A DNA stretch of 42,203 nt, taken from a virus. The DNA lies in IMG/VR virus record IMGVR_UViG_3300047678_000392, positions 1-42,203 of that record. The stretch is one strand, 5' to 3'. The notes beneath the pieces were generated by a model. It was not told the origin of the DNA and did not search any database. It saw only the letters and a program-made list of their open reading frames with translations. Below are positions 1,537 through 42,203 of this stretch, in pieces. Each line of letters starts with the position of its first letter. Within the stretch, counting starts at the first letter, position 1. A program made the translations under genes and the position numbers.

Positions 1537-2946
1537 ATGCCCACGCATGCCGTCACTGTTGAATGCCCGGTCCCGAGCAGTTTCGCCGTCGACCAGGTCC
1601 GCGGCATGTTCGATTTGCCGGCCGCCGCTACGCTTCGCGAGACGTTCAACGTCGAGCTGCCGGCCGATAACGACGATTGGAAAATCGGCGTCATCGTTGG
1701 GCCCAGCGGTTCCGGCAAAACCACGGTCGCCCGCAGCGCGTACGGTGATCGCTTCGTGGAGGGCGGGTTTCGCTGGGAGAAAAACAAGGCAGTTGTCGAT
1801 CACTTCGGCAAGCTCTCGATTAAGCACGTCACGCAGACGCTTACGAGCGTCGGATTCTCATCGCCACCGGCCTGGCTCAAGCCGCATCACGTGCTGTCGG
1901 GTGGCGAACGATTCCGCTGTGACCTGGCCCGGGCCCTGTTGCGGCCTGGCGACCTGGTGGCGTTCGATGAATTCACGTCGGTTGTCGATCGCACGGTCGC
2001 CCGTATCGGCTCCGCGGCGGTTGCCAAAAGCATCCGCCAGGGACGCATCGGCAAGAAGTTCGTGGCGGTCACGTGCCACTACGACGTGCTCGATTGGCTC
2101 GAACCCGATTGGGTTCTCGACATGGCGACGCAGCAGCTCGCAAGGGGGTGTCTTTACTGTCGGCCGACCATCGAGCTCAAAATCGCTCGTGTCCACCGTA
2201 CGGCCTGGCGCCTGTTTCGGCGTCATCATTATTTGAATCACGACCTGGCCGTCGGCGCGAAGTGTTTTGTTGCGTTCTGGAACGGCGAACCGGTCGCCTT
2301 CAGTTCGTGGATTCATCGCATGACGCGCACCTGCCGGCGGCACGATATGCGCGAACATCGCACGGTCGTGCTGCCCGACTTCCAAGGCATCGGCATCGGA
2401 AATCGTCTCAGCAGTTTCTGCGCGTCGATCTTTGCGAGTGCGGGCGGCCGCGCATTCAGCACGACCTCGCACCCGGGCATGATCCACTACCGTCATCATT
2501 CACCCGATTGGCGAACGCGCCGCTTCGGCATGGCCGCGCCAACCGGGCGAAGCGGAATTATGAGCCGCGGCAAGCGACGATCGCCCGCAATCGATTCCTG
2601 CGGTCGAGTGACCGGTGGGTTTGAGTATGTCGGCCCGAAGATCGATCAGGAAATGGCGGAGAAGTTTCTCGCCGATTCACCCGACGTGTTTGTGCCGGAT
2701 CGTGCCGAGCGGGCCGTGTTGATCGCGATCCTGAAATCGCCCGGTCTCACGTCGATCGCTCGCCTTGCCCGCTTGGCACACTACTCGACAACGCGCGTCG
2801 CGCGCGTGCTCGATCAATATCAAGCGCTGGGGCATACATATAGACAAGCGCTTGGCACGACGCGCGTCGGCTGGGGGCTCACTCTCTCTGGCCGCGAGCG
2901 CTTCGCGGGGCTGGAGCGCATCACCGATTGCGCGCATTTAGCCTGA
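1537..2946 (+). CDS. ABC-type ATPase fused to Mom-like GNAT acyltransferase and winged helix
   Basis: 469 aa, three modules. Residues about 48-210 form an ABC ATPase: Walker A GPSGSGKTT (55-63), signature LSGGERFR (120-127), Walker B with D144-E145 and an H-loop His181. There are no membrane segments and no permease neighbour, so it is not a transporter. Residues about 215-330 form a GNAT fold: RRHHYLNH near its start, the acyl-CoA loop VLPDFQGIGIGNRL (278-291) and TTSHPGMI (309-316). Residues about 383-460 look like a winged helix (RLARLAHYSTTRVARVLDQY). GNAT enzymes of the phage Mu Mom family modify adenine in DNA, and fused or adjacent ABC and ParB-like proteins in phages suggest DNA modification. 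Substrate and modification are inference; a protein or small-molecule acyltransferase is the alternative. Confidence 0.8.
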   Translation: MPTHAVTVECPVPSSFAVDQVRGMFDLPAAATLRETFNVELPADNDDWKIGVIVGPSGSGKTTVARSAYGDRFVEGGFRWEKNKAVVDHFGKLSIKHVTQTLTSVGFSSPPAWLKPHHVLSGGERFRCDLARALLRPGDLVAFDEFTSVVDRTVARIGSAAVAKSIRQGRIGKKFVAVTCHYDVLDWLEPDWVLDMATQQLARGCLYCRPTIELKIARVHRTAWRLFRRHHYLNHDLAVGAKCFVAFWNGEPVAFSSWIHRMTRTCRRHDMREHRTVVLPDFQGIGIGNRLSSFCASIFASAGGRAFSTTSHPGMIHYRHHSPDWRTRRFGMAAPTGRSGIMSRGKRRSPAIDSCGRVTGGFEYVGPKIDQEMAEKFLADSPDVFVPDRAERAVLIAILKSPGLTSIARLARLAHYSTTRVARVLDQYQALGHTYRQALGTTRVGWGLTLSGRERFAGLERITDCAHLA

Positions 2947-2976
2947 TCCGCCAACGCGGCGCGCTCTCTGTTCAAC

Positions 2977-3101
2977 GGCAACCTCTAGCCGGCATGGCCC
3001 GCTGAACTATTTCTGGAATTCCGGCGGAATTCTCGCGTCTGGCCCGCCTTTGCCGGCTAAGGCCTCCCGCGTGCGCGCCAGGCAACCTCTAGCCGGCATG
3101 G
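2977..3101 (+). repeat. 21-bp direct repeats and GCCGGCTAAGGCCT element
   Basis: The 244-base gap between the ABC-GNAT gene and the amidoligase contains a perfect 21-bp direct repeat at 2977-2997 and 3081-3101 whose core is CTCTAGCCGGCATGG. Between them, 3051-3065 reads TGCCGGCTAAGGCCT. Both motifs recur upstream of the terminase genes (40743-40757 exact for the second; 40763-40779 for CTCTAGCCGGCATGGTC). Role unknown: possible packaging, recombination or host-derived repeat. Confidence 0.75.
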
Positions 3102-3190
3102 TCCGAAATCAGCCCGACACCGATCAAACGGTCGACGATATTCGACTTAGACGAATCAAACACGTCACGACTCACACGGAGACAAAAAAC

Positions 3191-4021
3191 ATGAACGCGA
3201 ACGATCTTACTTTTGGCGTCGAAATCGAAACGACCATGCCACGCGGCAGCGTCGCAGTCGGTTCTTATCACTACGGCTACGATCTGACGGCCGCGGGATT
3301 CCCGCAGGGCTGGCAATCGAAAACTGATTGCAGCATTGAAGCCAGCCGCGGCCGGATCGGCGTCGAATTCGTTTCGCCTGTGCTCCGCGGAGCGGCCGGC
3401 GTCGCTAGCGTTCTCGCGATGCTCAAAAAACTGAATGAGCTCGGCGCGAAAGTAAACGCCTCCACGGGCCTGCATATACACGTCGGCTGGAATGGAGACG
3501 CGAAGGCCCTCAAGCGTCTCACGACGCTCGTCGCCAACTTTGAAAAGGCGATCTTTGCCTCGACCGGCACGAAGTCCCGCGAATCGGGCAACTACTGCCG
3601 CCGCATCAGCCATTACGGCAGCCCAGCCAACCCCAACCTCTCCTCGTCACGCTATCATCTGCTCAATCTCACGAATCTGGGCCACGGCCGGAAGAACACG
3701 GTCGAATTCCGCGCGTTCGCGGGAACGCTCAACGCCACCAAGATCGTCGGATATATCCGCCTCTGCCTGGGGCTGGTCGAGCGAGCCCACAAGGCCAAGC
3801 GCGTGACGAATTGGGCCGCGAAGCCCGTCAAGGAATCCTCCCCGATTCATCGCAGCGGCGAAGGGCAAACCGCGCTGACGCGTCTCTTCTATCAACTGGG
3901 CTGGGTCAAGGGTCGCACGAATTACACGTTCGGCGACGTGACTACGGAAGGCGCACCCGACGCCAGCGAAATCCGCAAGGAACTCATGCGACTCGCCAAG
4001 CAATACGATCAACAGCGCTAA
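3191..4021 (+). CDS. amidoligase (glutamine-synthetase-like fold)
   Basis: 276 aa. ATG 3191 is chosen because of a GGAGA Shine-Dalgarno at 3178-3182 and because the family motif FGVEIE comes directly after (residues 8-13); the open frame upstream to 3050 only translates the intergenic repeat. Motifs in order: FGVEIE 8-13, TDCSI 45-49, GVEFVSP 57-63, GLHIHVG 93-99, RYHLLNL 154-160, TVEFRAFAGTL 170-180. These are the acidic/His metal- and ATP-binding strands of the AmidoLig_2 superfamily, ATP-dependent carboxylate-amine ligases related to glutamine synthetase. The next gene is a class II glutamine amidotransferase, which could supply ammonia. This pairing is known in phages and predicted to modify a peptide, cell-wall or nucleotide substrate; the substrate here cannot be told from sequence. 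Confidence 0.88.
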   Translation: MNANDLTFGVEIETTMPRGSVAVGSYHYGYDLTAAGFPQGWQSKTDCSIEASRGRIGVEFVSPVLRGAAGVASVLAMLKKLNELGAKVNASTGLHIHVGWNGDAKALKRLTTLVANFEKAIFASTGTKSRESGNYCRRISHYGSPANPNLSSSRYHLLNLTNLGHGRKNTVEFRAFAGTLNATKIVGYIRLCLGLVERAHKAKRVTNWAAKPVKESSPIHRSGEGQTALTRLFYQLGWVKGRTNYTFGDVTTEGAPDASEIRKELMRLAKQYDQQR

Positions 4022-4034
4022 CCCAATCAACCCC

Positions 4035-4057
4035 GGCGGGGCGCCTGCGGCCCCGCC
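4035..4057 (+). other. 8-bp GC hairpin between amidoligase and GATase
   Basis: Perfect inverted repeat GGCGGGGC / GCCCCGCC with a 7-nt loop, 26 bases upstream of the next ATG. No T-run follows, so it is more likely an mRNA stability or partial-termination element than a strong terminator. Confidence 0.5.
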
Positions 4058-4082
4058 TCTCTCACTCGAAAGGAAAATCATC

Positions 4083-4775
4083 ATGTGCGGAATCTTCGGA
4101 TACGTGGCCGCGAACGGCAAGCAGTTTGATCCTCGCCGACTCGACACAATCGCCAAGGCGACGGAATCGCGGGGGCATCACGCCTTCGGTTTTGCCTGGG
4201 TCGACTCCCGCGGCCGGCTGCGAATGTTCAAGCGCTCGGGGCGAATCTCCGATTATCTCGGCGCGCTATCGATGGCGAAGGATGCTCGCATGCTGATCGG
4301 GCATTGCCGCTTCGCGACGCACGGCAAGCCCGAAAACAACCTCAACAATCATCCGCACCCCTGCGATGGCGGCTGGCTGATCCACAACGGAGTGATCGGC
4401 GACCATGAGGGAATCAATGAAGGCTACATGCTGTCGCCCGTCACGCGCTGCGACAGCGAAACGCTGGCGCTACTGATCGAGGAACTCGACGGCACGCTCG
4501 TCGATCGCTGCCTGCGGGCGTCCAAAATCTGTGCCAATGGCGCGCTCGCAATGATGGCGCTCTGGCGTTCGCCGCAGCGACTGGTAGCGCTTCGCGCCAA
4601 CGGCCAGCCCCTTAATCTCGGCACGAACAGCGAAGGCACGTATCTCGCCAGCCTCACGTGCGGACTGCCGAATCCGCGCTCGCTGGCCGACAACTCGGCC
4701 GTTTCGTTCAGTTTCAAGAATGACGACGTTCGCGTGTTGCGGCATTCGATGTCGAATGTCGACGTGAACGCCTAA
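4083..4775 (+). CDS. class II glutamine amidotransferase (Ntn-type GATase)
   Basis: 230 aa, a stand-alone GATase II domain. Cys2 after the initiator Met (MCGIFGY) is the N-terminal nucleophile. Other active-site elements of the GlmS/PurF/AsnB type are present: R30-G31 (ESRGHHAFG), the GHCRFATHG loop (R76, H80), N102-G103 (LIHNGVIGDHE) and D124 (CDSETLAL). It hydrolyses glutamine and would release ammonia, presumably for the amidoligase just upstream. No synthetase domain is attached (length equals the GATase domain only), so a partner is required. A good AAGGAAA Shine-Dalgarno precedes ATG 4083. Start is fixed by the need for Cys at position 2. Confidence 0.92.
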   Translation: MCGIFGYVAANGKQFDPRRLDTIAKATESRGHHAFGFAWVDSRGRLRMFKRSGRISDYLGALSMAKDARMLIGHCRFATHGKPENNLNNHPHPCDGGWLIHNGVIGDHEGINEGYMLSPVTRCDSETLALLIEELDGTLVDRCLRASKICANGALAMMALWRSPQRLVALRANGQPLNLGTNSEGTYLASLTCGLPNPRSLADNSAVSFSFKNDDVRVLRHSMSNVDVNA

Positions 4776-11706: not shown

Positions 11707-11867
11707 CCGCTGCGCGCACCGAAGTGATGCAATGTGGTGCAAAGTGGTGCGCGCCACCCCAATTTGAGACCTGACCCCACCTAGGGGAAGTTCCCCGGGA
11801 AGTTCCCCGGGAAGTTCCCGAACGGTGCGCGCCACCCCAATTTGAGACCTGACCCCACGGCACGGCG
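11707..11867 (+). repeat. 35-bp direct repeats flanking GGGAAGTTCCC palindromes
   Basis: Gap without a gene. A perfect 35-bp direct repeat lies at 11746-11780 and 11824-11858; its core reads CAATTTGAGACCTGACCCCA. Between the copies, three GGGAAGTTCCC palindromes occur with 13-bp spacing (11783-11819). Just upstream are short GTGGTGC repeats. This resembles a REP/BIME-type or mobile repeat inserted between head and tail genes. Confidence 0.85.
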
Positions 11868-29694: not shown

Positions 29695-29721
29695 TTACCC
29701 TCCCAATTTGAAAGGCACGTT

Positions 29722-30075
29722 ATGTCGACCCAGCAATTAGTCCCGACCGGTTCGGCGGCCGTCACGAACGTCGCGACCGAGTTGCCGGAGCTCGCGAACC
29801 TGAAGACTCTCGTCGCCAGCGGGTGCACGGCGCTCACGCAGTTGCCGGAGCTCGCGAACCTGGAGACTCTCTACGCCAACGGGTGCACGGCGCTCACGCA
29901 GTTGCCGGAGCTCGCGAACCTGAAGACTCTCTACGCCAACGGGTGCACGGCGCTCACGCAGTTGCCGGAGCTCGCGAACCTGGAGACTCTCGTCGCCAAC
30001 GGGTGCACGGCGCTCACGCAGTTGCCGGAGCTCGCGAAGCGTCTACTGGAGCGTGGTGTCGTGGTGTATCGCTGA
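29722..30075 (+). CDS. leucine-rich repeat protein of near-identical 20-aa units, 117 aa
   Basis: After MSTQQLVPTGSAAVTNVATE the protein is four copies of LPELANL-x-TL-xx-x-GCTALTQ plus a partial copy, ending LAKRLLERGVVVYR. The DNA repeats every 60 bp from 29781 to 30020 with only two variable sites: codon AAG/GAG (LKTL or LETL) and GTC/TAC (VAN/S or YAN). The motif fits a short LRR solenoid used for protein binding, as in LRR proteins of amoebal giant viruses. High identity between units implies recent expansion or gene conversion. A GAAAGG Shine-Dalgarno precedes ATG 29722. Confidence 0.8.
   Translation: MSTQQLVPTGSAAVTNVATELPELANLKTLVASGCTALTQLPELANLETLYANGCTALTQLPELANLKTLYANGCTALTQLPELANLETLVANGCTALTQLPELAKRLLERGVVVYR
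29781..30039 (+). repeat. 60-bp tandem repeat, 4.3 copies
   Basis: Units start at 29781, 29841, 29901, 29961 with a partial at 30021; each starts GTTGCCGGAGCTCGCGAAC. In-frame (60 = 20 codons), so copy number can change without frameshift. Confidence 0.95.
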
Positions 30076-30084
30076 GTTTGGTAA

Positions 30085-33658: not shown

Positions 33659-33867
33659 TGCGAATTCTGATCGACGGCCTGACGAAGCTGGTGCGGTCGT
33701 TCACGACCGAGCAGCGGCAGCTGATTAAGAGCACGGTGCATGCCTGCCTCGATAGCTATTCGAAGCTGCCGAGTTTCGTGACGAGCCCGGTCAAGACGGC
33801 GCTCGACAAGATGATCGACCGGTTTTTGGACGATACGCCCGACACGCCCGCCGCGAGCACGCCATGA
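33658..33867 (+). CDS. hypothetical protein, 69 aa
   Basis: ATGA overlap. MRILIDGLTKLVRSFTTEQR, KSTVHACLDSYSKLPSFVTS; helical, cytoplasmic. Function unknown. Confidence 0.55.
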   Translation: MRILIDGLTKLVRSFTTEQRQLIKSTVHACLDSYSKLPSFVTSPVKTALDKMIDRFLDDTPDTPAASTP

Positions 33868-34178
33868 GTGACTTAGTGAATTTGAGCCTGGTTGATGGGG
33901 CGATCCTGGTGGCCACGCTGACGGTGGTCTTGTTGCTCGGGGTGCCGCGGGCGCTGGCCTGGTGGTCGAATCGCCAAGCGGCTGGCGGCGATCCAAACCC
34001 GAGCGGACAAACGACCATCGATGCCGTGGATCCGCGGGAAGGAAGCTCGGCTTCCCTGCGGCAGCTCGCGGATCATATCGAGCTGGTTCCCGCGGACGAA
34101 CAACCGCCGCTACGTGAGGCGCTGTTGGAACTGACCAAACTCTCGGTGTTGGCACCCGGCGAACCGACAAACCAATGA
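33864..34178 (+). CDS. single-TM membrane protein, 104 aa
   Basis: Hydrophobic segment VDGAILVATLTVVLLLGVPR (10-29), basic stop-transfer, then a soluble tail (LRQLADHIELVPADEQPPLR). Candidate for holin/antiholin or spanin subunit on grounds of cluster and topology. Confidence 0.55.
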   Translation: MSDLVNLSLVDGAILVATLTVVLLLGVPRALAWWSNRQAAGGDPNPSGQTTIDAVDPREGSSASLRQLADHIELVPADEQPPLREALLELTKLSVLAPGEPTNQ

Positions 34179-34552
34179 AGCCGTTCACGCGGAACGACAA
34201 AATTGCCGTCGGGCTGCTGGCGGTGATTCTGGTGCTGCATGTCGGGCGGTCGCACGTCGGCCGGCTGGCGCCGCAGCCGACCGCCGCGGTGTACGTGTAC
34301 GAAAAGGACGAGGGGACGCCGCCGGCTGCGATCCTGGCCGGCCTCGACCAGCTCAATCGCCGCGGACTGACGGCCACGACGTTCGAAGACGACAGCATAA
34401 ACGGCCGCGGCGAGATCCCGCGGCAATACAAATCGGCGGTGCCGGCGGCGCGGACCGCCGGTCTGCCCGCCCTGGTGCTCTTGGCCGGCGACAGGGTGCT
34501 GCGGGTGACGAAACCGACGACCGAGACGCAAGTCGCGGAGCTGGCCCGATGA
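34175..34552 (+). CDS. membrane-anchored thioredoxin-fold-like protein, 125 aa
   Basis: N-terminal anchor (KIAVGLLAVILVLHVG), then a beta-alpha-beta domain (TAAVYVYEKDEGTPPAAILA; RGLTATTFEDDSINGRGEIP; GLPALVLLAGDRVLRVTKPT). The order of strands resembles a thioredoxin fold without CxxC. Four-base ATGA-type overlaps with both neighbours. Confidence 0.5.
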   Translation: MKPFTRNDKIAVGLLAVILVLHVGRSHVGRLAPQPTAAVYVYEKDEGTPPAAILAGLDQLNRRGLTATTFEDDSINGRGEIPRQYKSAVPAARTAGLPALVLLAGDRVLRVTKPTTETQVAELAR

Positions 34553-35439
34553 ATTCGTTCACACGGATTGACCCGAAGCTGATCGACGTGCGATTCCCGC
34601 GGCACACGGGCTACCCGGCCCGCCTCGCGCGGGAGGATTCGATCGACGTGCTGCGGCAGGTCTGCGGTGCGGCGACGCGCGACTTCCCTCAAGCCTTGTG
34701 GATCGAGCCGCAGGATTGGGCCGACAAGGCCCGCGACAACGACAAATATCATACGTGGCCGCTGAATTATCTTGATCGGTTCACCAACCAGAATCCGACG
34801 CATGAATGCACGTGTCACAGTTTGCGAGCGAACGCCGAAGCGGCCCGGAATCGATCGCGGGGGATTATCTTCCCCGAGGGGCCGAAGAAAGATTTTCGCT
34901 ACGAGCAGTCGCAGCTCGGGAGCGTGTGGTTGTCGCCGCTGTCGATCTACGCCGAGGCCAATCCCGGCCAGTGGGGCGGCGCGAACGTGCGGCAGGTGAT
35001 GGAGATCGCCGTCAAGCGCGGGTTTCTGCCCGACACGACGCAGCCGCGCGACTACGGACTAAAGCACACGCTGACCGGCACCGCAGGCAAAGGCAACAGC
35101 AACCAGTCGGGTGGCAAGTGGGTCGCGCTCAAGAATTTCCCAGCCGGCTGGGAAGAGACTGCCGCCTGGTTCCGGCCGGCCGAGGTGATCTTCCCCGAAT
35201 CGTGGGAGCAGGCCGTGTGTCTCGTGCTGCACGGCATGGTCGTCAGCGTCGGTCGCAGCGGCCATGCAGTGCCGTGGTCGCAGTGGAACGTCGCCGACCA
35301 GGCGATGATCTATCCCGATAGTTACGATCTGTGCCGGGCCGATTCGTTGGGCACGGTGAAAAGTGCCTGGCGTGGTGCGTTTGCGATCGCCAGCATGTCG
35401 GTGCCCGACAACTGGCTGCAGCCGACAGGAGGCAAATGA
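34549..35439 (+). CDS. papain-like cysteine peptidase (endolysin candidate)
   Basis: 296 aa. Candidate catalytic set of the C1/papain clan: Gln81 (FTNQNP), Cys87/Cys89 (THECTCHSL) on the following helix, His239 (VGRSGHAVPW) and Asp/Asn around 247-250 (WNVADQAMIYPDSY). Other clan features include LSPLSIYAEAN and the late Y-P-D-S-Y segment. No signal peptide. In the membrane/lysis-like cluster beside small membrane genes and before a holin-like gene, so a peptidoglycan-peptide hydrolase is plausible. A virion protease or host-takeover protease are alternatives. Confidence 0.6.
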   Translation: MNSFTRIDPKLIDVRFPRHTGYPARLAREDSIDVLRQVCGAATRDFPQALWIEPQDWADKARDNDKYHTWPLNYLDRFTNQNPTHECTCHSLRANAEAARNRSRGIIFPEGPKKDFRYEQSQLGSVWLSPLSIYAEANPGQWGGANVRQVMEIAVKRGFLPDTTQPRDYGLKHTLTGTAGKGNSNQSGGKWVALKNFPAGWEETAAWFRPAEVIFPESWEQAVCLVLHGMVVSVGRSGHAVPWSQWNVADQAMIYPDSYDLCRADSLGTVKSAWRGAFAIASMSVPDNWLQPTGGK

Positions 35440-36293
35440 TGAATACCAGCGCCGCACGCATGATTCTGATTGCGATGCTTCTAGCGCTCGTCGGGGCCTG
35501 CCTGGTGCGGTGGCTGACCGTGGCCAGCTGGCGGCCCGCGCCCCCAGCGGAGCGGCGAGTGGTCGAAAGCGAGCCGGCGGTGATCAATACGCCGGTCGTT
35601 GATATGCCGGTAAGTGATTCGCCAGTAGTCGAGCCGCCGGTAATCGAACAACCGGTGATCGAGCAGCCGCTGATTGATTTGCCGATCGCCGAGGAGCCGG
35701 CCGCCGACGTGCCAGACTCGAGCTCTGAGCCGTCGCCGTCGGCGACCGACGCAGCGCCGGCAACGGCCACCTATCGCGACGTCGATCTGGCGATCGAGGT
35801 GGCGCGCTCGGCCGGGCTGCCGCTGGTGATCGTCTTTCGGCAGACGGTGTGCGGGCCGTGCGATGACTATGAACGGAACGTGGTCGACAGCCAGGCGGTC
35901 GCGGCCGCGGCCGGTCGGCGGTTCGTATTGTGTGCGATCAACTGCGACGAGGATCCCGCGGCGGCCGCGCGATACGGCGTGCAGCGGACGCCGGGCGTGG
36001 TGATCGTCGCGACCACGGCCGACGGCCAGGGCGAAACCATGCGGCGCTACGTGACCAAAGCATTCCCGGCCCCGGCGACGCCGGCGGCCCTGCTGGCGGA
36101 GTTGGGGCGGCCGAGCGCGGCACGAGCCGCGCGGCGCGAGCCGCGAAATGGCTGCGGTTGTTGTGCGCGCTGCACGGGTCAAGCGGGGTGCGCGTGCGGC
36201 TGCCCAGCGTGCCATTGCGGCGATCGCGAAGCGGCGCCGGCCAAATCTTCGAGCGCAAGCGGCCGGCGGATCCTGGGCGGGTGGCGACGATGA
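35439..36293 (+). CDS. membrane-anchored thioredoxin-like protein with Cys-rich tail
   Basis: 284 aa. AGGAGG (35427-35432) 6 bases before ATG 35439. TM anchor at residues 8-27, a Pro/Val/Glu stalk (PVIEQPVIEQPLIDLPI), then a thioredoxin domain with CGPC at 138-141 (VIVFRQTVCGPCDDYERN) and cis-Pro TPG at 184-186. The C-terminus has nine Cys in 22 residues (239-260: CGCCARC, CACGCPACHC), metallothionein-like. Topology puts the redox domain outside the membrane (periplasm). Likely reduces or forms disulfides in envelope or secreted Cys-rich phage proteins; inference. Confidence 0.75.
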   Translation: MNTSAARMILIAMLLALVGACLVRWLTVASWRPAPPAERRVVESEPAVINTPVVDMPVSDSPVVEPPVIEQPVIEQPLIDLPIAEEPAADVPDSSSEPSPSATDAAPATATYRDVDLAIEVARSAGLPLVIVFRQTVCGPCDDYERNVVDSQAVAAAAGRRFVLCAINCDEDPAAAARYGVQRTPGVVIVATTADGQGETMRRYVTKAFPAPATPAALLAELGRPSAARAARREPRNGCGCCARCTGQAGCACGCPACHCGDREAAPAKSSSASGRRILGGWRR

Positions 36294-36421
36294 GCTGCCT
36301 GTGGTGGACTCTGGCCCAAATTGCCCGCTTCCTGCTGTGGAATCTGCGGTTCGGTTTGTGTGCCGCCAACGCGGTGCATGACTGGGCCGACGCGAAACTC
36401 AAAGCCAGCGGCGACGCATGA
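36290..36421 (+). CDS. small membrane protein, 43 aa
   Basis: ATGA overlaps on both sides. MSCLWWTLAQIARFLLWNLR, FGLCAANAVHDWADAKLKAS; one amphipathic/transmembrane helix rich in Trp. Function unknown; too short for family assignment. Confidence 0.55.
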   Translation: MSCLWWTLAQIARFLLWNLRFGLCAANAVHDWADAKLKASGDA

Positions 36422-36915
36422 GCGATCTCAAACTCATTATGTTCGACGTCTTCGGCACGGTGGTCGATATGTCCGCTGTGGACCGTGACGAAATCCGTGC
36501 TTACATCGAGCACATCCGCAAACCCGAGTGGTCGCCACTCGAGCTGCCAGCCAGCTGGCGCGACCTCCCGCTGCATCCCGATTCCAAAGCCGGCATCGCC
36601 CGGCTGGCGAAAAACTACAAGGTAGTCACCTGCTCGAACGGCAATTTTCAAGTGTTGCAGGGCATCGTGTGCAACCACGAGCTCGCGATGGAAGTCTGCC
36701 CGCTCGAACTCTTTCAAGTCTTCAAGCCAAACGCCTTTGCTTATCTGGCGGTATGCGCGGCCTACCGAGCCGCTCCGGAGCAAGCGATGATGGTGACGGC
36801 CAATAAAACATTCGGTGATCTCGAGGCCAGCGAGCGGCTCGGGATTCGCCCTAAACTTATCCGCGACGAGACTGGACTCACGATCGAGGATCTGGCCGCG
36901 GAGCTCGGATGCTAG
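36418..36915 (+). CDS. HAD-superfamily hydrolase (haloacid dehalogenase type)
   Basis: 165 aa. Motif I FDVFGTVVD with nucleophile Asp10 and the DxFGT pattern of the L-2-haloacid dehalogenase branch; motif II TCSNGN with Ser73; motif III KPNAFAYL with Lys103; motif IV ANKTFGDLEAS with Asp134. The cap between motif I and II is short. It would hydrolyse a phosphate ester or C-halogen bond; the substrate is unknown. Overlaps the lipid desaturase start by 7 bases, so the two may act in one lipid-modifying pathway (inference). Confidence 0.88.
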   Translation: MSDLKLIMFDVFGTVVDMSAVDRDEIRAYIEHIRKPEWSPLELPASWRDLPLHPDSKAGIARLAKNYKVVTCSNGNFQVLQGIVCNHELAMEVCPLELFQVFKPNAFAYLAVCAAYRAAPEQAMMVTANKTFGDLEASERLGIRPKLIRDETGLTIEDLAAELGC

Positions 36916-37451
36916 CGCACGTCATCGCTTGCATTCTGCTAGCTGATTTTCTCACCGGGCTCTTGCACTGGTGGGAGGACACCTACGGGCTGCCGAGCTG
37001 GCCGCTGGTGGGCCGGCTGGTGATCGAGCCCAACATTGAACATCATCTCGACCCGCGGCTGTTCGTGCGGATGGGCACGCTGGTGAGCCGCAGTTATCAG
37101 CTCGTGCTATTGGCCGGCGGCGTCATGGGGCTGGCCTGGCTGTCCGGCTATGGGAGCTGGCAGCTGGTGCTGGTGGCCGCGCTGGCGGCGAGCGGCAATG
37201 AGATCCACGCCTGGTCGCACGGTGCGACGCGGAATCGGCTGGTGCGGCTGCTGCAGGAGATGGCGCTCGTGCAAACGCCGCAGCATCATGCCCGGCACCA
37301 TCGCGGCGACTACAGCGAGCGGTTTTGCACGCTGACCAACTGGCTCAACCCGCTGCTCGATCGACTGTGTTTCTGGCGGCTCTTGGAGCACTGGATCCTG
37401 GTGGCCGGCGTGCCGCCAAAAAGAATGAGTCGCGCGCGACGATGGGTGTGA
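36909..37451 (+). CDS. CarF/PEDS1-type plasmanylethanolamine (lipid) desaturase homologue
   Basis: 180 aa. The family's His-rich metal motifs all appear: DFLTGLLHWWEDTYG (D13, H20, D24), NIEHHLDP (H45, H46), GNEIHAWSH (N97, E98, H100, H104) and TPQHHARHHRGDYSERFC (H126, H127, H130, H131), followed by NWLNPLLDRLCFWRLLEH. Two membrane stretches (residues 5-20, 62-95). Known relatives (animal TMEM189/PEDS1, Myxococcus CarF) are O2-dependent diiron enzymes that make the vinyl-ether bond of plasmalogens. Length is near the bare catalytic domain. ATG overlaps the HAD gene's end. A phage enzyme may remodel host ether lipids; substrate untested. Confidence 0.85.
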   Translation: MLAHVIACILLADFLTGLLHWWEDTYGLPSWPLVGRLVIEPNIEHHLDPRLFVRMGTLVSRSYQLVLLAGGVMGLAWLSGYGSWQLVLVAALAASGNEIHAWSHGATRNRLVRLLQEMALVQTPQHHARHHRGDYSERFCTLTNWLNPLLDRLCFWRLLEHWILVAGVPPKRMSRARRWV

Positions 37452-37801
37452 TGCGAATCACCACGGAACAACGCGCGCGCCTGTATGCCCTCGTCGGCGA
37501 CACCGACACGGAGCACTGTGGTCGCGTCTTTGCGGTGAAGGATAAACGCTGGGCCGCGGACCAGGTGGTCGCCGCCTTCGAGGAGCTCGTGGCCGAGACG
37601 GGAAAACGGCCCGGATACTTCGATCTGCGGGCCAGGGCTCGGTTGAATTTGCAGACCGGCAAAGTATTCGGCCCGACGGGCGAGCCCATTCAAGGGTCGA
37701 TCATTCTGACGGCGATTCTGATGGCGCTGATCGGCTGGGTCACGCGGCTGGTCTTGGACTGGTTGTGGGAGAACTACACGGCCGGCCTGGCGGGAGCCTA
37801 G
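37451..37801 (+). CDS. hypothetical protein with C-terminal TM helix, 116 aa
   Basis: ATGA overlap at 37451. Soluble N-terminal part (MRITTEQRARLYALVGDTDT; RWAADQVVAAFEELVAETGK) and a C-terminal membrane segment (GSIILTAILMALIGWVTRLV). Tail-anchored membrane protein; function unknown. Confidence 0.6.
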   Translation: MRITTEQRARLYALVGDTDTEHCGRVFAVKDKRWAADQVVAAFEELVAETGKRPGYFDLRARARLNLQTGKVFGPTGEPIQGSIILTAILMALIGWVTRLVLDWLWENYTAGLAGA

Positions 37802-37803
37802 CG

Positions 37804-38079
37804 ATGTTTTTGCAAAAGGCTGCCATCGTGGCTGCCGGCACGGCGGCCATCGTGATCGCCGAGACGCCGATCCCCTTTGTCGACGAATTCACCAAGTTTG
37901 GCGTCTGCGGCGCGCTGGTGCTGGTGATTTACTGGCTGATGAATAAACACGAAGGGTCGCTCAAGGATATGGGCGCAAAGCTGGACGGCGTGAAGGACGC
38001 GATTGAACGCAGTTCGGAGCGGCAGTGCGACGTGATGCGTTCTGTACTTACGAGCGAAGAGCGACAGCGAGAACCATGA
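37804..38079 (+). CDS. holin-like two-TM protein, 91 aa
   Basis: Residues 5-20 (AAIVAAGTAAIVIAETPI) and 29-43 (FGVCGALVLVIYWLM) are hydrophobic, followed by a charged coiled-coil (EGSLKDMGAKLDGVKDAIER). Size and topology match phage holins/holin-like proteins. Situated three genes after the peptidase candidate in the same operon. Inference by topology. Confidence 0.65.
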   Translation: MFLQKAAIVAAGTAAIVIAETPIPFVDEFTKFGVCGALVLVIYWLMNKHEGSLKDMGAKLDGVKDAIERSSERQCDVMRSVLTSEERQREP

Positions 38080-38771
38080 TGAAGCATTTGCGAGTACCGG
38101 TTATTCTCACGGCTCTGGTGGCGTTTGTGTCGCCGGTGCGCGCGGCGGATTACAGCGACGACTTCAACCGCGCGAACGGTGCGATCGGCGCATCCTGGAC
38201 GCAGGACAGCGGCACGTGGACGATCGCCAGCAACGTCGCCGGCAAGGCCAGCGCGGCCGGCTTCGACCAGGCGCGGTACGCCTCCGACCTGGGGTCGGCG
38301 GACCATTATTGCGAGATCGAACTTCGCACCAACAATGGCGGCATCGCGGCGGGCCCGGCCGTGCGGATGAGCGCCACGGGCTCCTATGCGCTGTACATAT
38401 TTTCGCCGGACATCTACATCGTCAAAATCGCCAGCGGCAGCCCAACCACGCTCAACCAGACAGCGCAGTCGATCGCGATCGGGCAGGTGCTCCGGTTAGA
38501 AGCACAGGGGACGACGCTCCGGGGCTACGTCGACGGCGTCCTCAAGCTCACGGCGACCGACAGCACGTACACGACGCAGCTGCGCTGCGGAATGTTCCAG
38601 TACGGCAACTCGGGCGGCACGATCGACAACTGGCGCGCGGGCGACCTCGTTCGACGCCGGCTCATCTGGTACGAGTCGTCCGTGCTGCGGACGTCTCCGT
38701 TATTCAGTGCCATGAGCCAGCGCGTTGACCCGCTCAAGCCGCTCGCACCTTGTTTGTTCCTTGCACCTTAA
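38076..38771 (+). CDS. secreted LamG/concanavalin-like protein, 231 aa
   Basis: Signal peptide MMKHLRVPVILTALVAFVSP VRA (cleavage after VRA|A). The mature part (DDFNRANGAIGASWTQDSGT; then GSADHYCEIELRT; later GQVLRLEAQGTTLRGYVDGV) is a beta-sandwich of the laminin-G/DUF1080 kind, which binds sugars. The last 40 residues after DNWRAGDL are Arg/Leu-rich and may be out of the fold. Probably surface adhesin or tail-fibre component. Confidence 0.65.
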   Translation: MMKHLRVPVILTALVAFVSPVRAADYSDDFNRANGAIGASWTQDSGTWTIASNVAGKASAAGFDQARYASDLGSADHYCEIELRTNNGGIAAGPAVRMSATGSYALYIFSPDIYIVKIASGSPTTLNQTAQSIAIGQVLRLEAQGTTLRGYVDGVLKLTATDSTYTTQLRCGMFQYGNSGGTIDNWRAGDLVRRRLIWYESSVLRTSPLFSAMSQRVDPLKPLAPCLFLAP

Positions 38772-40973: not shown

Positions 40974-41645
40974 ATGGCCGAGCCCGAGAAGCCGATCACC
41001 GCGACCCGTCAGGCGTTCATCGCGCTCGTGCAATCGGCACTCCGGAAGCAGGCCGCCCGCGAGGCTCTCACGCCGAAGGAATCGCGCGCGATCGATCAAT
41101 GGAATGCCGAGGAGAACGAACGCCGCGGCCGCCTCTGGCTGCGCTCGCTGACGAAAAAACAATACTGCGAGCTGGTCGGCCGGCAGGTCAAAGTCGTGAA
41201 TGATCAGGCCGATCGGTACGGGATCCCGCTTCGCGGCGCAACGGTCGACGCGCTGGAAGTGTTTAAGTGGATCCACGACTTTCTGGCCAAGCACAAACAC
41301 ACGCTGCCGGCGATCATCCACGGCGAGCCCGGCGCAGCGTCCCCCAGCGATCAGCTCAAGCTGGAACAAATCGAAGTCTATCGCCGACGAGTGAAACTGC
41401 TCGAAAATAAGATTGAGCTGGCCGAGGAAACACTGCTTCCGCGCGTCGAGGTGCATGAACTGCTCGCGCAGCTCGCGAAGGTGCTCCGCGGAGCGGGGGA
41501 ACGATTGCACAAGCAGCATGGGCCCCAGGCGGCCAGTATTCTGGAAGTCGCTCTCACGGACTTTGACACGATGATCGAGCAGCTGGCGACAAAAACCGAG
41601 TCGCCGGCGGCATCATCGGAGCATGCCACGCCAGCAAACAATTGA
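40974..41645 (+). CDS. terminase small subunit (Nu1-like)
   Basis: 223 aa. Central winged-helix segment (LTKKQYCELVGRQVKVVNDQ, then RYGIPLRGATVDALEVFKWI) like Nu1-family DNA recognition domains, then a coiled coil (EQIEVYRRRVKLLENKIELA) and a C-terminal helical part (VHELLAQLAKVLRGAGERLH) that contacts the large subunit. It selects the viral DNA at the packaging site. Overlaps the terminase large start by 23 bases. Confidence comes from fold pattern plus neighbour. Confidence 0.8.
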   Translation: MAEPEKPITATRQAFIALVQSALRKQAAREALTPKESRAIDQWNAEENERRGRLWLRSLTKKQYCELVGRQVKVVNDQADRYGIPLRGATVDALEVFKWIHDFLAKHKHTLPAIIHGEPGAASPSDQLKLEQIEVYRRRVKLLENKIELAEETLLPRVEVHELLAQLAKVLRGAGERLHKQHGPQAASILEVALTDFDTMIEQLATKTESPAASSEHATPANN

Positions 41646-42203
41646 CGAGATCCGCTGGCTGTTGCGCGCCTCGCGAGCTCCGAAGATCCGGCCAATCCGG
41701 CAATTCGCCGAAGAGGAGCTCGTCATCCCCGAAGGCAAATTTGAGGGGAGCAAGTATCGCAGCGATACGCTCCCTTGGCAGCGGCTCTATCTCGACGAAA
41801 TCGACAGCGGCCGTTGGTTTCGATTCATTTTGATCGCTTGCGTGCAGGGCGGCAAAACCCTGGTCGGATGGGTGATCCCGATCCTCTGGCATATTTTCGA
41901 ATGGCGAGAGAATTTCGGGGCGGCGGTACCCAACATTTTGCAGGCTTACGATAAATATCGCCTCGAGCTGCTACCGGCGATCGACGCCAGCCCGAATTTT
42001 CGCGAACACAAACCGATTCGCGGGGCAGGATCCAAAGGCGGCAAGTTTGAAGCGATCGAATTCCGACATGGTCCGACGCTGAAATTCTTGAGCGGCCACG
42101 GCGGCGACGAAAAGCGTTCGTCGATTACTCTTCGCGGCAGCGCCGTCACCGAGGCGGATCGACTCGATTCCGCCGGCGAAGCCAGTCGCGAAGCGGCGCC
42201 CAT
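41623..42203 (+). CDS. terminase large subunit, GpA family (5' part only)
   Basis: 193 codons to the window edge, starting MPRQQTIDEIRWLLRASRAP. The GpA-type ATPase begins with the conserved approach VIPEGKFEGSKYRSDTLPWQ and the Walker A-like ACVQGGKTLVGW (VQGGKT). Later, SGHGGDEKRSSITLRGSAVT and EADRLDS approach the Walker B region. Lambda gpA is 641 aa, so about two thirds, including the nuclease domain, is missing beyond the edge. It cuts concatemeric DNA and powers packaging. Confidence 0.9.
   Translation, partial: MPRQQTIDEIRWLLRASRAPKIRPIRQFAEEELVIPEGKFEGSKYRSDTLPWQRLYLDEIDSGRWFRFILIACVQGGKTLVGWVIPILWHIFEWRENFGAAVPNILQAYDKYRLELLPAIDASPNFREHKPIRGAGSKGGKFEAIEFRHGPTLKFLSGHGGDEKRSSITLRGSAVTEADRLDSAGEASREAAP

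Follow-up and report, generated by a model that had tools for sequence, protein, structure and literature searches.

A phage gene for a putative membrane-lipid desaturase of the PF10520 family, outside the PEDS1/CarF group and within a coupled late operon

Eight histidines are common to the whole PF10520 family, and a ninth (H131 of mouse PEDS1, H113 of CarF) marks the plasmanylethanolamine desaturases PEDS1 (TMEM189) and CarF. In mouse PEDS1 the D100A change abolishes activity; loss of the ninth histidine leaves about 7% and F118A 6%, Phe118 being the second most sensitive of the residues mutated (PMC8960569). Homologues from plants and Alphaproteobacteria that lack the ninth histidine failed to complement carF in M. 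xanthus (PMC9131029). The plant enzyme FAD4, the delta-3-trans desaturase of phosphatidylglycerol, is an eight-histidine member without the ninth (PMC8960569, PMC9131029); FAD4 and PEDS1 have been reported to share a fully conserved set of residues, to which Phe118 appears to belong (PMC8960569). Phage-borne desaturases of the stearoyl-CoA desaturase class offer a precedent, with stress tolerance as their proposed benefit; those of Arctic brine viruses (vFAD) are diiron membrane enzymes for which host membrane lipids are the proposed target (PMC7300359).

We analysed a stretch of 42,203 bases (the window), positions 1 to 42,203 of the IMG/VR virus record IMGVR_UViG_3300047678_000392; the genes described below between 33864 and 42201 lie on the plus strand. 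Two open reading frames named in a preliminary description of this DNA are both present, at 36418..36915 (165 aa, HAD fold) and 36909..37451 (180 aa), overlapping by 7 nt. The PF10520 Lipid_desat profile matches the 180-aa protein with an E value of 1.3e-36 and 126.7 bits against a cut-off of 26.4, and portal, protease and major head protein genes lie on the same contig, which bears out the claim of a CarF/PEDS1 homologue on a phage. Its signature reads H20xxED24, N42xxH45H46, H100xxxH104 and H127xxH130H131, so that the eight-histidine set comprises H20, H45, H46, H100, H104, H127, H130 and H131, and Asp24 is the counterpart of the essential aspartate, mouse D100. Among 36 diverse relatives that we aligned, the eight histidines and Asp24 are invariant, and Glu23 and Asn42 likewise. 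The earlier statement that all histidine motifs are present thus applies to the eight family-wide histidines, none of which is lost in the alignment, but not to the ninth histidine of PEDS1/CarF, whose place in a pairwise alignment with human PEDS1 is taken by Met55. The place of mouse Phe118, before the HH motif, is held by Asn42. The human sequence used agrees with the published D99 and F117 numbering and with the expected position of the ninth histidine, 130.

An AF2 model of the 180-aa protein has a pLDDT of 91.9 and a pTM of 0.87. A search of BFVD with this model matched viral lipid-desaturase models, the best named one being a 'lipid desaturase domain' protein. The predicted fold matches the lipid desaturase domain protein of Harvfovirus (UniProt A0A3G5A308; E 1.2e-6, TM 0.68), which belongs to a giant virus of eukaryotes and has 26% identity to the phage protein. 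Foldseek gave no significant match to the model in the PDB; we found no solved PF10520 structure, and PHROGs contains no family that matches the protein. Taking the Pfam match, the residue signature and the model together, positions 36909-37451 probably encode a small, catalytically competent enzyme of the diiron class PF10520 that crosses the membrane several times. It resembles the Arctic brine vFAD in being a phage-encoded diiron membrane desaturase, as we read it, with host membrane lipids as the putative target, and differs in family, vFAD having been modelled on stearoyl-CoA desaturase and not on PF10520 (PMC7300359).

To place the protein within its family, we built a tree that included human PEDS1 and homologues from planctomycetes, containing no myxobacterial CarF and no plant FAD4 sequence. 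The window protein falls in a clade, which we call N-type, sister to the PEDS1 side with support 96/92. Forcing it to the PEDS1 side is rejected by the AU test at p=0.021, a value to be taken as a guide since the groups were defined after the tree was seen. The clade signature is HWxED...PNxxHH, and it comprises 49 distinct phage sequences and 19 genome-derived ones; the eight histidines and the aspartate are found in 68 of the 68 and the ninth histidine in 0 of the 68. Sequences on the PEDS1 side have no Glu beside the Asp, and Phe is usual before the HH motif. The phage protein shares the Pfam domain and the order of the eight histidines and the aspartate with PEDS1/TMEM189 and CarF (NF045946; PF10520), but it lacks the ninth histidine and the N-terminal region, has Asn for Phe118 and an extra Glu beside the Asp, and is placed in the separate clade. 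It differs from FAD4 too in having Asn at the Phe118 place, a comparison made through the published residue set rather than a FAD4 sequence. By these residues and the tree, N-type is a separate, mostly viral PF10520 subfamily with invariant Glu and Asn beside the predicted metal ligands and with the ninth histidine and Phe of PEDS1/CarF replaced. In a partial literature search we found no description of this subfamily; apart from PMC9131029, the papers found to mention PF10520 deal, by title, with plant or algal desaturases.

Relatives of the desaturase occur on at least 120 IMG/VR contigs, at 12 loci in GTDB genomes, in an Erythrobacter phage isolate (vB_EliS-L02, protein UIS25202.1) and in a jumbo phage, and the gene recurs in about 30 lineages. 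Searches for the PF10520 family gave matches in 30 of 294 Planctomycetota genomes, 1 of 195 Verrucomicrobiota and 4 of 190 Alphaproteobacteria (3 over the cut-off). Close pairs of desaturase relatives have dN/dS values of 0.05-0.22, a sign of purifying selection on the protein in these viruses. A single origin of all N-type phage genes is disfavoured by the AU test (p=0.012, again a guide value, the group having been named after the tree was seen), and several transfers are therefore likely.

Because the contig carries portal, head maturation protease, major head protein and terminase genes, we take it to be a genuine tailed phage. The terminase genes stand at the right end of the window: the small subunit at 40974..41645 (phrog_57, E 3.2e-4; 37% identity over 59 aa to a planctomycete prophage) and the large subunit, cut by the window end, at 41623..42201 (PF05876 GpA_ATPase, E 0.0033; 45% identity over 183 aa to TerL of the planctomycete prophage). 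This prophage, which lies in a planctomycete chromosome, is syntenic with the window, with identities of 45% for TerL, 40% for the portal protein, 44% for the protease and 45% for the major head protein. The head genes and the syntenic prophage rule out a bacterial fragment misclassed as a virus, and the prophage makes Planctomycetota the likely host as judged from these sequence matches. Neither the desaturase nor the HAD gene is present in the prophage.

In the window, the desaturase is the seventh gene of a coupled run of ten, from 33864 to 38771, which lies upstream of the terminase and ends with a virion protein. Of its nine junctions, eight are overlaps, of 4 nt in six cases and of 7 or 10 nt in the other two, and the remaining one is a 2-nt gap. 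The run opens with two proteins that each have one N-terminal hydrophobic helix, of 104 aa (33864..34178) and 125 aa (34175..34552). They are followed by a 296-aa protein (34549..35439, joined by ATGA overlaps) that looks like a cysteine peptidase by eye only; it has a homologue at L072:1-432 (E 2e-63), and searches gave it no family match and no convincing sequence relative in the PDB. The next gene, joined through an ATGA overlap (35436..36293), encodes a 285-aa thioredoxin-like protein with a CGPC motif and an N-terminal hydrophobic stretch, presumably membrane-anchored or secreted (PF13899 Thioredoxin_7, E 1.2e-8 on the reading frame from 35331). A 43-aa hydrophobic peptide (36290..36421), with an ATGA overlap on both sides, leads to the HAD gene and the desaturase. 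Downstream, the start of a 119-aa protein with a C-terminal hydrophobic helix (37442..37801; no PHROG match) overlaps the desaturase end by 10 nt, and a 91-aa small membrane protein follows (37804..38079), holin-like in its hydrophobic N-terminal half and charged tail, a role suggested by shape only; it has no Pfam or PHROG match. The last gene (38076..38771, ATGA overlap) encodes a protein with a signal-like N-terminus that matches phrog_2804, 'virion structural protein', with E 1.1e-10. Among the ten we recognised neither a dedicated electron donor nor a gene for lipid synthesis.

This late operon position suggests that the enzyme would act on the membrane during assembly or lysis. In other lineages, too, the desaturase adjoins head, tail or packaging genes, for example a head-tail joining gene in L019, Mu gp36/gpG-like genes in L017, a terminase in L026 and a head protease in L024. 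In L048 the end of the desaturase gene shares 4 nt with a patatin-like lipase gene (L048:10516-11379), and a patatin is present in the sister phage L055 too. Late expression does not hold for all relatives: in the large AT-rich L032, L044 and L089 the gene stands alone, on the strand opposite to its neighbours. In five lineages the gene immediately before the desaturase encodes a secreted trypsin-like protein, identified by Pfam in L019 and L092 and by sequence similarity in L025, L071 and L094; the planctomycete prophage has a trypsin-like gene (by eye) upstream of its terminase, in the slot equivalent to that of the desaturase. Thioredoxin-like genes, recognised by a CxxC motif and context, lie within about 5 kb of the desaturase in L029, L033, L087, L044, L025 and the window (35436-36293), counts that stand without a background rate.

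The gene at 36418..36915 encodes a protein that has a HAD fold without the cap and is of the haloacid dehalogenase type II kind. Its best families include TIGR01428 (E 2.9e-19, with 69.8 of the 125.4 bits required, below the cut-off) and PF00702, and haloacid dehalogenases in the PDB match it with E 7e-10. Like type II haloacid dehalogenases (TIGR01428) it has the D-x-F-G-T nucleophile motif, SNGN, KPN and a C-terminal Asp motif; unlike them it lacks about 60 cap residues, which the alignment to the PDB chains skips between motif I and residue 44, and it misses the curated cut-off. In its motif D10-V-F12, Phe stands at the place of the second Asp of phosphatases, the general acid of DxD. This Phe at D+2, with dehalogenases as the nearest families, leads us to reject the phosphatase-like reading of the preliminary description. 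The protein probably has an accessory role and an active site other than that of a phosphatase. An AF2 model made from three sequences was poor (pLDDT 46.7).

The coupling of the two genes, also noted earlier, is upheld by the 7-nt overlap and by the only HAD relatives found in IMG/VR, those of L038/L042 (two contigs, one lineage), which have 40% identity and are separated by about 0.8 kb from a desaturase, itself only a distant relative of the one in the window. A scan with the window HAD protein alone found no relatives, and scans with the L038 protein and with a two-lineage profile found the L038/L042 lineage only; two further hits of an exact-motif scan, L141 and L142, proved to be chance frames. 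Every virus in which we found the HAD gene has the desaturase as well, which makes a functional link likely, although most desaturase phages are without the HAD gene. The HAD protein also has weak matches in 27 of 199 Planctomycetota genomes; these resemble cellular HADs of the ordinary kind.

We consider it reasonably likely that the 180-aa protein is a late-expressed, catalytically competent membrane-lipid desaturase. By family knowledge it would bind two irons, and it would use O2 and host electrons and, at a late stage of infection, dehydrogenate a chain of one of the host's membrane lipids; the cytoplasmic membrane would thereby be changed during virion assembly and preparation for lysis. 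The preliminary description had gone further and proposed a true plasmanylethanolamine desaturase, through which the infected host would come to contain vinyl-ether plasmalogens. The 33% identity over 171 aa to human PEDS1, the match to the NCBIfam NF045946 CarF model with E 1.4e-22, the complete set of eight histidines and Asp, and the 6-7% activity, rather than zero, of mouse PEDS1 after loss of the ninth histidine or Phe118 (PMC8960569) speak for it. However, the CarF match reaches 80.4 bits against an equivalog cut-off of 500, the substitutions at the ninth histidine and Phe118 extend through the whole clade, the protein groups away from PEDS1, homologues without the ninth histidine do not replace carF (PMC9131029), and we recognised no phage gene for the synthesis of ether lipids. 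The two replacements and the tree position rule out plasmalogen synthesis as the leading reading, and we regard it as quite improbable; the product is probably not the plasmalogen vinyl ether. Modification of membrane lipids nevertheless remains the natural reading, so that the earlier idea of host lipid remodelling survives without its plasmalogen part. We assume desaturation rather than hydroxylation because of the PF10520 family. An oxygenase of another kind on the same diiron scaffold, such as a lipid or sterol hydroxylase whose altered chemistry is marked by Glu23 and Asn42, seems unlikely to us: PF04116 FA_hydroxylase matches weakly over 140 residues (E 2.5e-5, below the cut-off) and the two invariant polar residues beside the ligands are absent from PEDS1-type sequences, but the 25.1 bits of that match compare with the 126.7 of PF10520, and no N-type protein is, to our knowledge, among those whose function has been tested.

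Two other readings concern the benefit of the gene rather than its chemistry. It would be a very improbable accident if a bacterial gene without a role in infection had been picked up by chance: related N-type genes of bacterial genomes can occur on their own, next to LysR or TetR regulators (L012, L013, L023), but the gene recurs across the lineages counted above, including the isolate vB_EliS-L02, its dN/dS values are low, it is like the phage in GC and in codon third positions (GC and third-position GC of the whole operon are those of the rest of the genome), and it is embedded in coupled late operons. Nor is it likely that the membrane change serves the prophage-carrying cell, for instance through superinfection exclusion or stress tolerance, instead of late lytic steps. 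The syntenic prophage in a planctomycete chromosome and the stress tolerance proposed for other phage desaturases (PMC7300359) are in keeping with such a benefit; that same prophage, however, is without the desaturase, and in many lineages the gene sits inside late structural operons. A late-acting desaturase of host membrane lipids thus remains the reading that we prefer.

More tentatively, we suggest as a possibility that N-type forms a class of diiron lipid enzymes, found mainly in viruses, whose active site is set apart by the gain of Glu and Asn and the loss of the ninth histidine and which makes a lipid not known from PEDS1 or FAD4, and that unrelated phages of planctomycetes and other aquatic bacteria may use it to condition the membrane for assembly or lysis. 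If this is true, current phage gene libraries miss a lipid-modifying enzyme of many environmental phages, PF10520 gains a further branch beside PEDS1/CarF and FAD4, and there is a defined target for studying how phages alter host membranes in late infection. It would also caution against calling all PF10520 proteins with eight histidines plasmalogen-forming.

The searches also turned up PF10520 proteins of the PEDS1 type. Cellular proteins in Planctomycetota genomes (L107, L110-L113, L115-L124) have the complete PEDS1/CarF signature of Phe, ninth His, eight His and Asp. Since true CarF homologues beyond myxobacteria are stated to have been reported only in Leptospira (PMC9131029), aerobic plasmalogen synthesis in planctomycetes is worth testing. 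A 595 kb uncultured jumbo phage (LR756511.1) encodes at L011:3965-4423 a PEDS1-side protein on a long branch, with Phe and with His at the ninth-histidine position, for which no IMG/VR relatives were found. Elsewhere in the window, positions 1537-4775, upstream of the portal gene, hold an ATPase/acetyltransferase-like gene (phrog_11143), an amidoligase (phrog_2443) and a GlmS-type glutamine amidotransferase domain, a cassette that may serve to modify peptides or sugars. A 35-bp sequence occurs in two identical copies 78 bp apart at 11746-11858, and tandem 60-bp repeats, the inner copies of which are 96% alike, occupy positions 29720-30079.
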